Positions 53,788-60,643 of a stretch of DNA of 64,000 nt are shown piece by piece. This DNA comes from Xylophilus rhododendri. GTDB lineage: Bacteria; Pseudomonadota; Gammaproteobacteria; Burkholderiales; Burkholderiaceae_C. The DNA lies in assembly GCF_009906855.1 (NCBI RefSeq), contig NZ_CP047650.1, positions 1,302,001 to 1,366,000 on the forward strand, in the 5' to 3' direction. Both the position numbers and the translations under genes were made by a program. Within the stretch, counting starts at the first letter, position 1. Every line of letters starts with the position of its first letter. Under the pieces are notes generated by a model. That model was not told the origin of the DNA and searched no databases. It was given only the letters and a program-made list of their open reading frames with translations.

Positions 53788-53795
<8 letters not shown>

Positions 53796-55044
53796 AACGC
53801 AGCGCCTCCGCGGGATTCACGCGGCTGGCGCGCCAGCTGGGGTAGAGGGTGGCCACGAAGGACAGCACCAGGGAGATGACGGCGATGGGCACGATGTCGG
53901 CCTCCTGCGGCTCGCTCGGCATCTGGCTGATCAGGTAGACGTCCTTGGGCAGGAAGCTGGCGTGGAACAGGTGCTCCAGCGCCGGCACGATCACATCGAT
54001 GTTGAAGGCGATCAGGAGGCCCAGGCCCAGGCCGGCCAGGGTGCCGATCACACCCACCATGGCGCCCTGCACCACGAAGATGCCCATGATGCTTTTCGGG
54101 CTGGCGCCCAGGGTGCGCAGGATGGCGATGTCGGCGCGCTTGTCGGTCACCGTCATCACCAGCGTGGAGACCAGGTTGAAGGCGGCCACGGCCACGATCA
54201 GCGTGAGGATGATGAACATCATGCGTTTCTCGACCTGCACCGCCGCGAACCAGGTCTTGTTCTGCTGGGTCCAGTCGCGGATGAAGACCTCGCCGCTCAG
54301 GCTGTTGGCCAGCTGCTGGGCCACCTCGGGCGCCTGGTGCAGGTCGCGCAGCTTCAGGCGCACGCCGCTCGGGCCCTCCAGGCGGAAGATGCGGGCCGCA
54401 TCCTGCTCGTGCACCATGGCCAGGGCCGAGTCATATTCGAAATGGCCCGAGTCGAAGGTGCCGACCACGGTCATCTGCTTGAGCCGCGGTACCACCCCGG
54501 CCGGTGTGACCTGGCCGTTGGGCGACACCAGCGTGACCGGATCGCCCACCCGCACGCCCAGCGCGCGGGCCAGCTCGATGCCCAGCACGATGCCGAACTG
54601 CCCCGGCACCAGCTTCTGCAGCACCGCCACCTGCTGCGGCCCGCCCAGGTCGGCCACCTCGGCTTCGTGCGCCGGGTCGATGCCGCGGATCAGCGTGCCG
54701 CGCATGTCCTCGCCGCGGGCGATGAGCGCCTGGGCCGAGATGAAGGTGGCCGCGCCTATCACCTCGGGATTGCGCCGCGCCTCCTCCATCGTCTTGCCGG
54801 CATCGGCCAGCGCCGCGCCGTTAGGCGACAGGATCTCGATGTGCGAGACCACCGAAAGCATGCGGTCGCGCACCTCCTTCTGGAAGCCGTTCATGACCGA
54901 CAGCACGATGATCAGCGCCGCCACGCCGAGGGCGATGCCCAGCATGGACACGCCGGAGATGAAGTTGATGAAGCCGTTGCGCCGCGTGGCGCGGCCGGCC
55001 CGGGTGTAGCGCCAGCCCAGGACCAGCTCGTAGGGAAGTTGCAT
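53788..55044 (-). CDS. lolC: Lipoprotein-release ABC transporter permease LolC/LolE
   Basis: 418 residues with one N-terminal and three C-terminal membrane segments around a large periplasmic domain. [34 protein letters not shown] is the LolC/E start and [24 protein letters not shown] the coupling helix region. Only one permease gene is present, so it may act as a LolF-type homodimer with LolD. Confidence 0.93.
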
Positions 55045-55293
55045 GTGGGAGAGGGTGCGTGCGGGTGAGTGGGGATGCGCGGGACGGCGGTGAAGGCGCA
55101 GGGATTGTGATCGATCGCGCGGCGGGGCTTGTGTGGGAATGCGTGGCCGCGGCGCCGGGCTGGCAGAAGCTGGCCGGTCGAACATTCTCCACACAACTCC
55201 GTAGAACTATTACGCGTAAAGCGGCTGCGATTAGTTCCGACTTCTGAGAGGGCCAGCCAAAAATGAGCACCCACTCACTCCGAGAGCACTCCC

Positions 55294-55641
55294 ATGACCA
55301 TCCCCACGGAAAAAAGCCTGATCGACTCCTTCAAATGCACAGGTCGCGCCATACCGGACGAGTACCGCCTGGTATTCGACGATGCCGGCAGGGCGGAGAT
55401 CGATGTGACGAATCTGCGCTCTTTCGATTACCACGTGCACTCCCTGTCTGGCGAAGACTTCCAATTGCCGTTCACCGTGGAAACGTCCCATGGACGCAGG
55501 AACGTCCAAGGGCGAGGTCGCTACGACTTATCTCCGCCCTATACGGGCAGGCTGGTTTTTGAATCGACGTGTACATCCGCCAACCACACCATCGCAGAGT
55601 TGACATCCTTCCAGGCAAGCAGTTGGCAGACACCTGCGTAA
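55294..55641 (+). CDS. Array unit 1, unknown small protein
   Basis: 115 residues: IDSFKCTGRAIPDEYRLVF, AEIDVTNLRSFDYHV, FTVETSHGRRNV, LSPPYTGRLVF and LTSFQASSWQTPA match the array pattern throughout. No signal peptide or membrane span. Predicted mostly beta from strand-like alternation. GAGAG precedes the ATG weakly. Family not recognised. Confidence 0.65.
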   Translation: MTIPTEKSLIDSFKCTGRAIPDEYRLVFDDAGRAEIDVTNLRSFDYHVHSLSGEDFQLPFTVETSHGRRNVQGRGRYDLSPPYTGRLVFESTCTSANHTIAELTSFQASSWQTPA

Positions 55642-55660
55642 TACCTGCCCGACCACATAA

Positions 55661-55705
55661 GTGAACCTATGGTTCGAAACCTCGCACGGCAATGTGGAAT
55701 TACCG
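55661..55705 (+). pseudogene. Array fragment, middle part only
   Basis: This stretch encodes WFETSHGNVELPHD, matching the FTVETSHGR strand of unit 1, with no matching start or end. It shows that a copy was lost between units 1 and 2. Confidence 0.45.
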
Positions 55706-55751
55706 CATGACAGGCGCCACTTATGCAATCACCACTTCGAAAGCTACGGAC

Positions 55752-56120
55752 ATGATTTCATTGGATTTATTCAAACTCGACGGCAAGGCAAGAGTTTATT
55801 CTGGCGCCATCCAAATTCGGGCCGGCAGCACGGCGACCGGCATTGTGATCGATCTGCGATCGTTTAATTATTTAATTGGCGAACCCACCAACCAGCGCAA
55901 CCCTCCATTGCTGCTGATCACTTCCGCCGGGCAGACGCTGTTGTCCGCGCCCAGGGCTCTGTTCCGGGCGACGCACACATTCGCCGAGCCTTACTCCGGA
56001 AAAATCACCCTCTGCATGGCGAACGGCGTCGCCAGCGGAACGAACATTTTCGAAGTCAAGGATTTCGATGGCACGATGGATCCAGCTTTTGACAAAGTGC
56101 ATTCAGTACGCGGTTCGTAA
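55752..56120 (+). CDS. Array unit 2, diverged unknown protein
   Basis: 122 residues from ATG 55752 (55707 and 55692 also possible). DLFKLDGKARVYSGAIQIRAG, IVIDLRSFNYLIGEP, LLLITSAGQTLLS, AEPYSGKITL and NIFEVKDFDG follow the array order. The C-terminus is longer than in other units. No clear ribosome site, so expression is uncertain. Confidence 0.5.
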   Translation: MISLDLFKLDGKARVYSGAIQIRAGSTATGIVIDLRSFNYLIGEPTNQRNPPLLLITSAGQTLLSAPRALFRATHTFAEPYSGKITLCMANGVASGTNIFEVKDFDGTMDPAFDKVHSVRGS

Positions 56121-56137
56121 CCGTACGTGGAGAAAAT

Positions 56138-56310
56138 ATGCCTATCATTCCAACGGGCGCATTCAAATACACAGGCAACGTCCAGCCCACAAAATTCAGC
56201 CTGCGTATCTGGCTGACAGGGTCTGCGGAAATTGACGCCGTCAACCTGCAGTCGTTCACACGGTCGAGCTGCAGAATTTTTCAGCGGACACATGGAATAC
56301 ACCAACATGA
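56138..56310 (+). pseudogene. Array unit 3 with internal deletion
   Basis: The start is well preserved with GGAGA upstream: MPIIPTGAFKYTGNVQPTKF...AEIDAVNLQSF. Immediately after, the sequence jumps, out of frame, to the family's end TVELQNFSADTWNTPT and stop at 56308-56310. About 40-50 codons are deleted. The reading that continues past the join to 56368 is meaningless. Confidence 0.6.
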
Positions 56311-56436
56311 CCGAATTCCGCATTCCCGCCGACAATTAATACCTCCACCACCCTGCTCCACCCGGTAATTTTGAGACCAACCTCACCGGACATAGCCTGA
56401 TCAACCCATTCGAATTGACATTCGGAGCGCCGAGCC
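56307..56436 (+). pseudogene. Array unit remnant with early stop
   Basis: ATG at 56307 overlaps unit 3's stop; after MTEFRIPADN comes a TAA, and the same frame then reads PPGNFETNLTGHSLINPFEL, equivalent to the VETSxGR strand region. Start and end parts are missing. Confidence 0.45.
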
Positions 56437-56763
56437 ATGCCAACCATACCTACCGATGCATTCAAATTCGTGGGCAAAGCGTCCCCCGGAAAATTCAACA
56501 TGTGCATCTGGGAGACAGGTGCCGTGGAGATCGACGTTGTCGGTCTGCAGTCATTCGACTATTACGTAGGTGGCCCCCAAAGCCAGCCCGCACCGGAGAT
56601 GCACACCTTGGGTGGGCGTGCAGTGCTGCACGGCCTGGGGACGCAGGTGTTTTCTCCACCTTATACCGGTAGGCTGTCTATCCGCTTGTATGCAACACCC
56701 AAGAGACCGAACACGGTGCAACTGCAGAACTTCATTGCGGATGCGTGGACCACTCCGTCGTGA
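56437..56763 (+). CDS. Array unit 4, unknown small protein
   Basis: 108 residues and the cleanest copy: MPTIPTDAFKFVGKASPGKF, AVEIDVVGLQSFDYYVGGP, MHTLGGRAVLH, FSPPYTGRLSIRL and TVQLQNFIADAWTTPS. No signal peptide. Weak GGAG upstream. It ends 30 bases before unit 5. Confidence 0.6.
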   Translation: MPTIPTDAFKFVGKASPGKFNMCIWETGAVEIDVVGLQSFDYYVGGPQSQPAPEMHTLGGRAVLHGLGTQVFSPPYTGRLSIRLYATPKRPNTVQLQNFIADAWTTPS

Positions 56764-56793
56764 AAATACATCAGGCATTGTGGAGAATTAGAA

Positions 56794-57132
56794 ATGGACG
56801 AAATTACAACCGCTCTTGCAAACTTCAGATACGAAAACGGCGCATCCCCGGGTGGAAATTATATTGACATCCCGGGTGGCGGATCGGCAAGCTGCAATGT
56901 CACGGAACTCAAATCCATGGCCTTCGCATTGATTCGCCACTCTTAAACGCCAATTGCCTATGTGGAAACCAGCCGCGGCCGAACCATTATCAACCCAGAT
57001 CAACGCTCACTAAAATACAACCCTCCCTATACAGGTCTGATCAGGATATTTGCCGAACACGGGCACGACGATTGTTGTTTCACATTCCAGATATACGAAT
57101 TCAACGCCAAAAATTCACGCATGCCTCAATGA
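56794..57132 (+). pseudogene. Array unit 5 with in-frame TAA
   Basis: 113 codons with good GGAGA upstream. MDEITTALANFRYENGASPG...CNVTELKSMAFALIRHS ends at TAA 56944-56946. The same frame continues without further stop through AYVETSRGRTIINPDQ and LKYNPPYTGLIRIFAEHG to TGA at 57130. A single nonsense codon thus splits an otherwise whole copy. Confidence 0.6.
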
Positions 57133-57245
57133 AAATGGCCGGGACCGCTGTTCATTTGACCATTGAGCGGTCAGGCCAAATGATTCGGGGAGTGGTCAAG
57201 GCCCAGACTCCTGGGGCCGGTCGCGGCGGTGGGACAATCCGCCGG

Positions 57246-58187
57246 ATGCACCTTCTTGTTCCGTACGCCAGCGCCCTGGCCCCCGGCTGCGATGCCGCCC
57301 GACGCAGCCTGGAACTGCATAACCTGAGCGCCCTGCTGGGTCGGCTGACCTGCTCGGCACGGGATGAAGCCGAAGAGTTCTCGCTTTCGACACCCCACGA
57401 ACGAAGCTTGGCTCGACTGCGCGGCCTCGCCGCCGACGATGGGCAACAACCCTGGGCCGCGCTGGCCATCGCCGATGCAGGCGGCCAAGCGGGCGACGAG
57501 GCCATGGCCTGGATCACGCCCTGCCACTGGCAGATCGCACCCGACCACATCAGCCTGACCGACCCCGCCTCGCTGGGACTGACCGAAGCCGAGTCGCGCG
57601 CCACGCTGGCCCTGATCGGCCCGTACTTCACCGAAGACGGCATCACCCTCGAATACCGCACGCCCAGCACCTGGCTGGCGCGCGGCGAGATCTTCCGCGG
57701 CATGCCCAGCGCTTCGCTGGACCGCGTCACCGGCCGCAGCCTCGACCTGTGGATGCCCGACGGCCCGGCCGCCCGCCCGTTGCGCCGGCTGCAGACCGAG
57801 GTGCAGATGCTGCTCTACACCCATCCCATGACCGACGAACGCAATGCACGAGGCCTGCCTGCCGTCAATGCCTTCTGGGTGAGCGGCACGGGGGCCCTGC
57901 CCGCTTCCGTCAAGCCCGCGCCGCCGGATCTGCGCGTGCCGCAAGCACTGCGCGAGGCAGCACTGCACGAAGACTGGGCCGCCTGGCGCGCCGCCTGGCT
58001 GGCCGTGGACGCTGGCGAATGCGCCGAGGCGCTGAAAGCGCTGGATGCTGGCCAGCCCGTCACCCTGACCTTGTGCGGTGAGCGCTCTGCCATCGAATTC
58101 ACCGCGCAGCCGCGCTCGCTCGGCCAGCGCATCCGGGGCCTGTTCGGCGCCAAGCCCGGCCTGCAGGACTGGACGGCCCAGCTGTGA
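57246..58187 (+). CDS. Conserved protein upstream of recJ (phosphoglycerate-mutase-like annotation)
   Basis: 313 residues, cytoplasmic. MHLLVPYASALAPGCDAARRSL at the start and ITPCHWQIAPDHISLTDP centrally are typical of a Burkholderiales protein kept beside recJ and often named after phosphoglycerate mutase or regulatory protein RPE. No histidine phosphatase RHG motif is visible, so that name is doubtful. Its end overlaps the recJ GTG by 4 bases. Confidence 0.8.
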   Translation: MHLLVPYASALAPGCDAARRSLELHNLSALLGRLTCSARDEAEEFSLSTPHERSLARLRGLAADDGQQPWAALAIADAGGQAGDEAMAWITPCHWQIAPDHISLTDPASLGLTEAESRATLALIGPYFTEDGITLEYRTPSTWLARGEIFRGMPSASLDRVTGRSLDLWMPDGPAARPLRRLQTEVQMLLYTHPMTDERNARGLPAVNAFWVSGTGALPASVKPAPPDLRVPQALREAALHEDWAAWRAAWLAVDAGECAEALKALDAGQPVTLTLCGERSAIEFTAQPRSLGQRIRGLFGAKPGLQDWTAQL

Positions 58188-59923: not shown

Positions 59924-60474
59924 TCATACCAGCAAGGCCGGGGCTGCAAAACCCGGCCTATTTGAAGGTTTGGCCCGTTTCATCCGCCTGCAGACCATAC
60001 ACAGCAGACCGAGACCGGCACTCAGCATGGCATAACTTTCCGCTTCGGGTACTGCAGCCACCGGAGTCAAGGTCAGGAGCGCCGTGCTGCCCATGGCGAT
60101 ATTCAACTCGCTGAGGCTCACGGTCAGCGTATTCCCGACCGTGGCGATGTCGCTGGAATCGAGGAACGAGGACGAAGTCAAATGATAGGTACCCGGGAAG
60201 TCTTGGGAGAGGTCGGTAATAACATAGGAACTTCCAGCAGTCGGCTCCCAACTCTGAATGATCAAAATTTCGATGGTGGAATCATCAATGGTTACGTTTT
60301 CATAGCCCGACGCAAATAGGGTTCCACCGGAGACTATTGTCCGGTCACCAAGATCCACATCCCCGTTAGTGCGATAAGTTACGTTAACCATATCCCCAAA
60401 ATACCGGCATGCACGTTCACCGCGACCAGGAAACACAAGCCCGCAAACACATTCAAACATTTCCTTTTCGACAT
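59924..60474 (-). CDS. PEP-CTERM-type exported protein with frameshift
   Basis: The ATG at 60474 gives a signal peptide MSKRKCLNVFAGLCFLVAVN ending VHAG, but the frame stops soon after. The next frame holds the mature part (GDMVNVTYRTNGDVDLGDRT onward) to 59924. An extra base in CCCC at 60394-60397 joins them. The C-terminus VPEAESYAMLSAGLGLLCM followed by CRRMKR is a PEP-CTERM sorting signal with VPEAESYA in place of VPEPxTYA. It would be processed by an exosortase, not encoded here. Lower G+C than its neighbours. Confidence 0.7.
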
Positions 60475-60643
60475 GATTCACTCCAAATTGATGTTGACTG
60501 GAAATACCCGATGAAAAGCACATCTGAATTTTCATAACGCGGATTCCCGGCCTCAATAGCCCAGACGAGCTTTCAAAGCACTCACACTCCCGTAATTACC
60601 CAGGGGACCGTGCGATCGCGCCAATAGCGCCTAAAATGCCCCG

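Follow-up and report, generated by a model that had tools for sequence, protein, structure and literature searches.

Probable leaderless tandem paralogues of a PEP-CTERM passenger domain in Xylophilus rhododendri

We analysed a 64,000-nucleotide stretch of the Xylophilus rhododendri genome (NZ_CP047650.1; hereafter the window, to whose positions all array coordinates refer), in which five small units, U1 to U5, of one family of about 110 codons lie head to tail on the forward strand, between a gene that a first reading of the bare sequence (the original prediction) named lolC and the gene before recJ. Profile matches identify the family as the domain carried as passenger by a small group of surface proteins of the PEP-CTERM (exosortase-sorted) type. 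On balance, we favour reading the array as a cluster, specific to this species, of paralogues of this passenger that lack leader and tail; these duplicated, diverged under purifying selection and are partly decaying. More tentatively, a multigene family of re-internalised, that is, leaderless and cytosol-made, lectin-like proteins may have arisen in one species from exosortase substrates and been kept by selection.

Three of the five units are intact: U1 (55294-55641, 115 residues), U2 (55752-56120, 122 residues) and U4 (56437-56763, 108 residues). U3 (56138-56310) is broken: its initial 40 codons (120 nucleotides) and its final 53 nucleotides, which reach the stop codon, resemble U4, while the middle is gone and the rest is out of frame. 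The ungapped matches of these two parts to U4 score 46 (56138-56257) and 19 (56258-56310), against a shuffle maximum of 17. U5 (56794-57132) is interrupted by a single in-frame TAA. The spacers between successive units measure 110, 17, 126 and 30 nucleotides. The array of five copies, its position and its mixture of intact, deleted and stop-containing units thus stand as originally described. The mid-gene fragments claimed between the copies were recovered in part: a start-less piece on the forward strand in the U3-U4 spacer (56375-56420) resembles the beginning of U1 (74% over 46 nucleotides, score 22; maximum 17 in 60 dinucleotide shuffles) and U3 retains its C-terminal piece, whereas the supposed U1-U2 fragment is not significant (profile E 1.9).

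The units differ greatly and yet form, by their sequence similarity, one family. When one of U1, U2, U4 and U5 is left out, a profile of the other three recovers it, at E 9.3e-15 for U1, 1.1e-8 for U2, 1e-17 for U4 and 9.5e-10 for U5, against a background of 2000 shuffled sequences and 840 open reading frame (ORF) decoys. In pairwise BLASTP comparisons among the same four, the strongest match is U1-U4 (38%, E 4.5e-22) and the weakest U1-U2 (24%, E 0.001); searched from U4, the values are E 4e-22 for U1, 7e-8 for U2 and 9e-6 for U5. A phmmer search with U4 over the whole genome found U1 (2.7e-15), U3 (1.7e-9), U2 (0.002) and, only at 0.05, U5. The closest pair in the array is U3 and U4.

The original prediction left the family unrecognised; profile searches now assign it to the PEP-CTERM passengers. 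A profile made from array units only (A3), scanned over the whole of the own genome (G000), matched two genes outside the array, the solo gene L032 (E 1.7e-9) and L033 (E 3.8e-7). L033, found blind in this way, encodes a protein of 166 residues whose N-terminus is signal-like and which ends in a PEP-CTERM tail; it scores above the Pfam PEP-CTERM cut-off, and its nearest NCBIfam family is FxDxF (NF038126), at 42.9 bits, below the cut-off of 50. A single-sequence search with U4 gave a weak match (E 0.067) to another gene that is also found by the FxDxF model. A mixed profile that includes leaderless rows (A5) produced four matches in G003, the nearest sister species by DNA identity of the flanking gene, each in a frame that carries a PEP motif, and one PEP-CTERM match, with leader and tail, in a genome of another family (G452). 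Conversely, a profile of seven PEP-CTERM passengers recovers all four intact leaderless proteins (E 3e-10 to 3.9e-6; best of 4000 shuffles, E 1.1). U1, U2, U4 and L032 themselves have no meaningful match in NCBIfam (none for three of them, E 0.11 for U4) and do not reach the curated FxDxF cut-off.

The sorting machinery is present in the same genome, which holds an exosortase (PF09721, E 5.1e-68, above cut-off). Across the seven genomes of the genus, FxDxF matches at E 1e-8 occur only in G000 and G003, with 12 in each and none in the other five. The same two genomes stand out by a strong exosortase match, that of G003 reaching 1.6e-66; three others range from 9.2e-24 to 2.5e-17 and two have none. 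One of the G003 loci, L068 (G003:C1, about 3095500-3097100), scores 49.8 against NF038126, for a cut-off of 50. It comprises an intact PEP-CTERM gene and, beside it, a second one of this passenger group that appears to be frameshifted; this suggests that decay also occurs among the exported members.

As far as their sequences tell, the array copies lack both the leader and the sorting tail. In the alignments, the leaderless proteins begin level with the PEP-CTERM passengers, past the signal-like segment of the latter, and finish immediately ahead of VPEP. N-terminal hydropathy is low in the array proteins, the frames remain open for only 6-29 residues upstream of the starts, no Pfam or NCBIfam PEP-CTERM match was found in the units, and the hydropathy of the last 30 residues is at most 0.50 in five proteins. 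The short spacers at U2-U3 and U4-U5 could not accommodate a leader together with a tail. The solo copy L032 (L032:1480-1806, reverse strand; G000:C1, about 5382500), of 108 residues, is likewise leaderless and is the closest relative of U2 (37%). It stands alone, 44 nucleotides after what we take to be a Bug-type binding-protein gene, and its last four residues are RPES, at the place where L033 reads PEPES; RPES is possibly a remnant of the sorting motif. The G003 counterpart of the Bug-type gene (82% over 951 nucleotides) is directly followed by another gene, without a leaderless copy; only this one gene of the neighbourhood was matched, and the statement on synteny at the L032 site is therefore weak.

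Structure prediction, proposed with the original description, gave confident models for U4 (predicted local distance difference test, pLDDT, 89.5; predicted template modelling score, pTM, 0.81) and U2 (pLDDT 84.3). The predicted fold, over nearly the whole length, is a beta-sandwich resembling carbohydrate-binding modules (CBMs), and a glycan-binding role may be read from it. A search of a viral structure library gave no match at 0.001.

The array occupies a variable place. The start-to-start distance of the flanking genes is 2201 nucleotides here, against 149 in G003 and 122 in G005; the stretch missing from these two empty sites spans 55123-57229 (edges approximate), that is, the array with about 170 nucleotides of leader region and about 100 of trailer. 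In G006 and G002 the corresponding gap contains a nucleotidyltransferase together with a HepT-like domain, both above their Pfam cut-offs (L022:1526-2453 and L023:1601-2590; one 330-residue frame in G002), presumably a toxin-antitoxin-like pair by its domains, and the gap in G001 is also longer. Searched against five sister regions, array DNA gave nothing significant (best E 0.12). A site vacant in two sister species and occupied by other genes in two more argues that the array is particular to one species among the seven of the genus, at a locus that seems, from these comparisons, to have gained genes repeatedly. The originally proposed local duplication, diversification and loss agree with these sites, with the close U3/U4 pair and with the two broken units.

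Comparison with related genomes found leaderless copies in G000 only. U4 alone was positive in one of 60 relatives (G000), A3 in 1 of 399 genomes of the family, A5 in 2 of 399 of the order, the second match being a PEP-CTERM protein, and A6 in one genome out of 369 from the class and one out of 330 from the family. The genome sets overlap and all contain G000; thresholds ran from 1e-3 to 1e-6, with a limited number of first-look candidates scored per genome. Scans of six array pieces against Pfam and PHROGs gave no family, and a sequence search of solved structures with U4 gave none. Phages yielded only a match at E 0.1, to a mycobacteriophage minor tail protein present in two records; no relative was found in plasmids and none was confirmed in three scans of viral contigs. 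Two strict-pattern scans of named genome contigs returned 110 and 2 matches, none confirmed, with patterns that would miss divergent copies. The literature on PEP-CTERM proteins, judged largely from listings, yielded no description of leaderless passenger paralogues; among the papers listed for FxDxF, most concern clathrin-mediated endocytosis by their titles and none PEP-CTERM.

Such a restricted, highly diverged set, with two of five copies broken, a start-less piece and no clear promoter, could also be genomic debris, non-working pieces of passenger copied without leader and tail and drifting away. We consider this unlikely, if the most serious alternative, in view of how the copies have changed. 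The codons of U3 and U4 give a ratio of non-synonymous to synonymous differences (pN/pS) of 0.33, with wrong-frame controls near 1; the pair evolved under purifying selection, and the leaderless forms were therefore kept as proteins prior to decay. Three array copies and the solo copy are full length with a third-position G+C of 0.65-0.83, as against 0.52 in the broken U5, and the confidence of both structure models likewise speaks against drift.

Base composition bears on a further reading, namely that the leaderless family arrived by transfer from an unsampled donor, or else is the older of the two forms, PEP-CTERM proteins having gained the passenger later. The G+C content of the units is 48-57%, and in 300-base steps it is 49-58% inside the stretch against 62-74% in the flanks, so that the poverty in G+C reported originally is real. 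However, four PEP-CTERM passenger genes measured in the own genome and the nearest sister are equally low (49-60%); low G+C is hence no proof of transfer, and the transfer originally assumed, for which no donor was found, does not follow. Occurrence in a single species among the genomes searched and an undecided tree would suit this reading, but relatives with leader and tail occur in G003 and in another family while leaderless ones were seen in G000 only, and the viral and plasmid searches brought no relative. We regard it as improbable. The anatomy of promoter-poor, leaderless, tail-less and truncated tandem copies of a surface domain is also that of silent cassette stores such as pilS and vls, which donate to an expressed gene by gene conversion, but we reject this as very improbable because the shared DNA identity is too small for recombination: the longest exact words shared with two own PEP-CTERM genes are 11 and 10 nucleotides (shuffle means 9.9 and 9.6), those among array units are 7 to 10, and the one 14-nucleotide word (shuffle maximum 13) is common to the array and the solo gene, itself leaderless.

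Several observations weigh against the reading of the array as paralogues of a PEP-CTERM passenger kept under selection. Five of the seven PEP-CTERM rows were gathered with a profile that already held leaderless rows, which makes the blind L033 match the cleaner test. With a profile of U1, U2, U4, U5 and the start of U3, one shuffle (E 3.3e-4) outscored the PEP-CTERM relative L006 (0.01), so that L033, not L006, carries the link; the leaderless profile gives 6.3e-4 for the fragment L072 and no better than 0.0053 for L006. The stretch has about as many promoter-like sites as chance would supply (2 observed, 1.5 expected), and two of the five copies are broken. Foldseek found no PDB match at E 0.001 (best 2.4e-3), and a CBM-like fold is by itself no proof of sugar binding. 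A single origin of the leaderless copies appears in 28% of 200 bootstrap trees, and the tree settles neither whether the leader was lost once or twice nor which form came first.

If the array does consist of such paralogues, a copy of an exported passenger would once have arisen that lacked the signal peptide and the C-terminal sorting tail, the exported form being, we infer, the earlier one, yielding beta-sandwich proteins of about 110 residues made in the cytosol. The leaderless genes would then have duplicated head to tail in one spot, and once elsewhere, and diverged under purifying selection, two of five breaking later. The intact copies may act in the cytosol or, by analogy with small leaderless bacterial lectins, be released without a signal; both this location and the binding of sugars suggested by the predicted fold are conjectural. 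Of the immunity, adhesin and recognition roles first guessed at, adhesin comes nearest, the passenger being that of an exosortase-sorted surface protein, but the copies lack the export signal and sorting tail. Such an origin would offer bacteria a route to gain small soluble lectins from exported matrix proteins, and a PEP-CTERM passenger could be retained by selection even where the export and sorting signals typical of its relatives are missing. One passenger type tied to a CBM-like fold would also give a testable explanation of why PEP-CTERM proteins are linked to exopolysaccharide.

The left neighbour, lolC by its original name (53788-55044, reverse strand), and the right neighbour, the gene before recJ (57246-58187, forward strand), are taken from the ORF list; the former has an 83-90% DNA match in five sister regions, and the latter matches by DNA in all seven genus genomes and has no Pfam family in a Pfam scan. 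Besides the units, no gene was recognised in the array stretch, where no search was aimed at mobile-element genes. Just after recJ lies a further PEP-CTERM gene (59924-60556, reverse strand; PF07589 above cut-off) with a different passenger, a weak start and PEAES as its PEP motif.

Compared with known systems, the array domain is homologous to the passenger of PEP-CTERM proteins near the FxDxF group (NF038126; TIGR02595 / PF07589), and the own genome holds both FxDxF genes and an exosortase; the array and solo copies, in contrast, have neither signal peptide nor PEP-CTERM tail. PEP-CTERM sets are described as prone to fast duplication and loss, as carrying signal peptides in about 97% of members and as tied to exopolysaccharide (PMC1569441). 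One such protein, PepA, is reported to raise the share of bound exopolysaccharide, and its overexpression restores flocs (PMC9850573); the RpoN dependence of pepA given by the same source prompted the idea of a sigma-54 promoter, for which no consistent site was found. The predicted beta-sandwich is like those of CBM36, CBM35, CBM6 and the N-terminal domain of CE2 esterases, but identity in structural alignments is only 9-10% and no Pfam family appears up to E 1 in the six array pieces. Those domains belong to secreted enzymes. LecB, a bacterial lectin without a signal peptide, offers an analogy, with no homology implied, in that both are small soluble proteins. It is described as having 11.7-kDa subunits and binding the exopolysaccharide Psl (PMC7841849), and as having been observed in the cytoplasm and the membrane fraction (PMC3466170).
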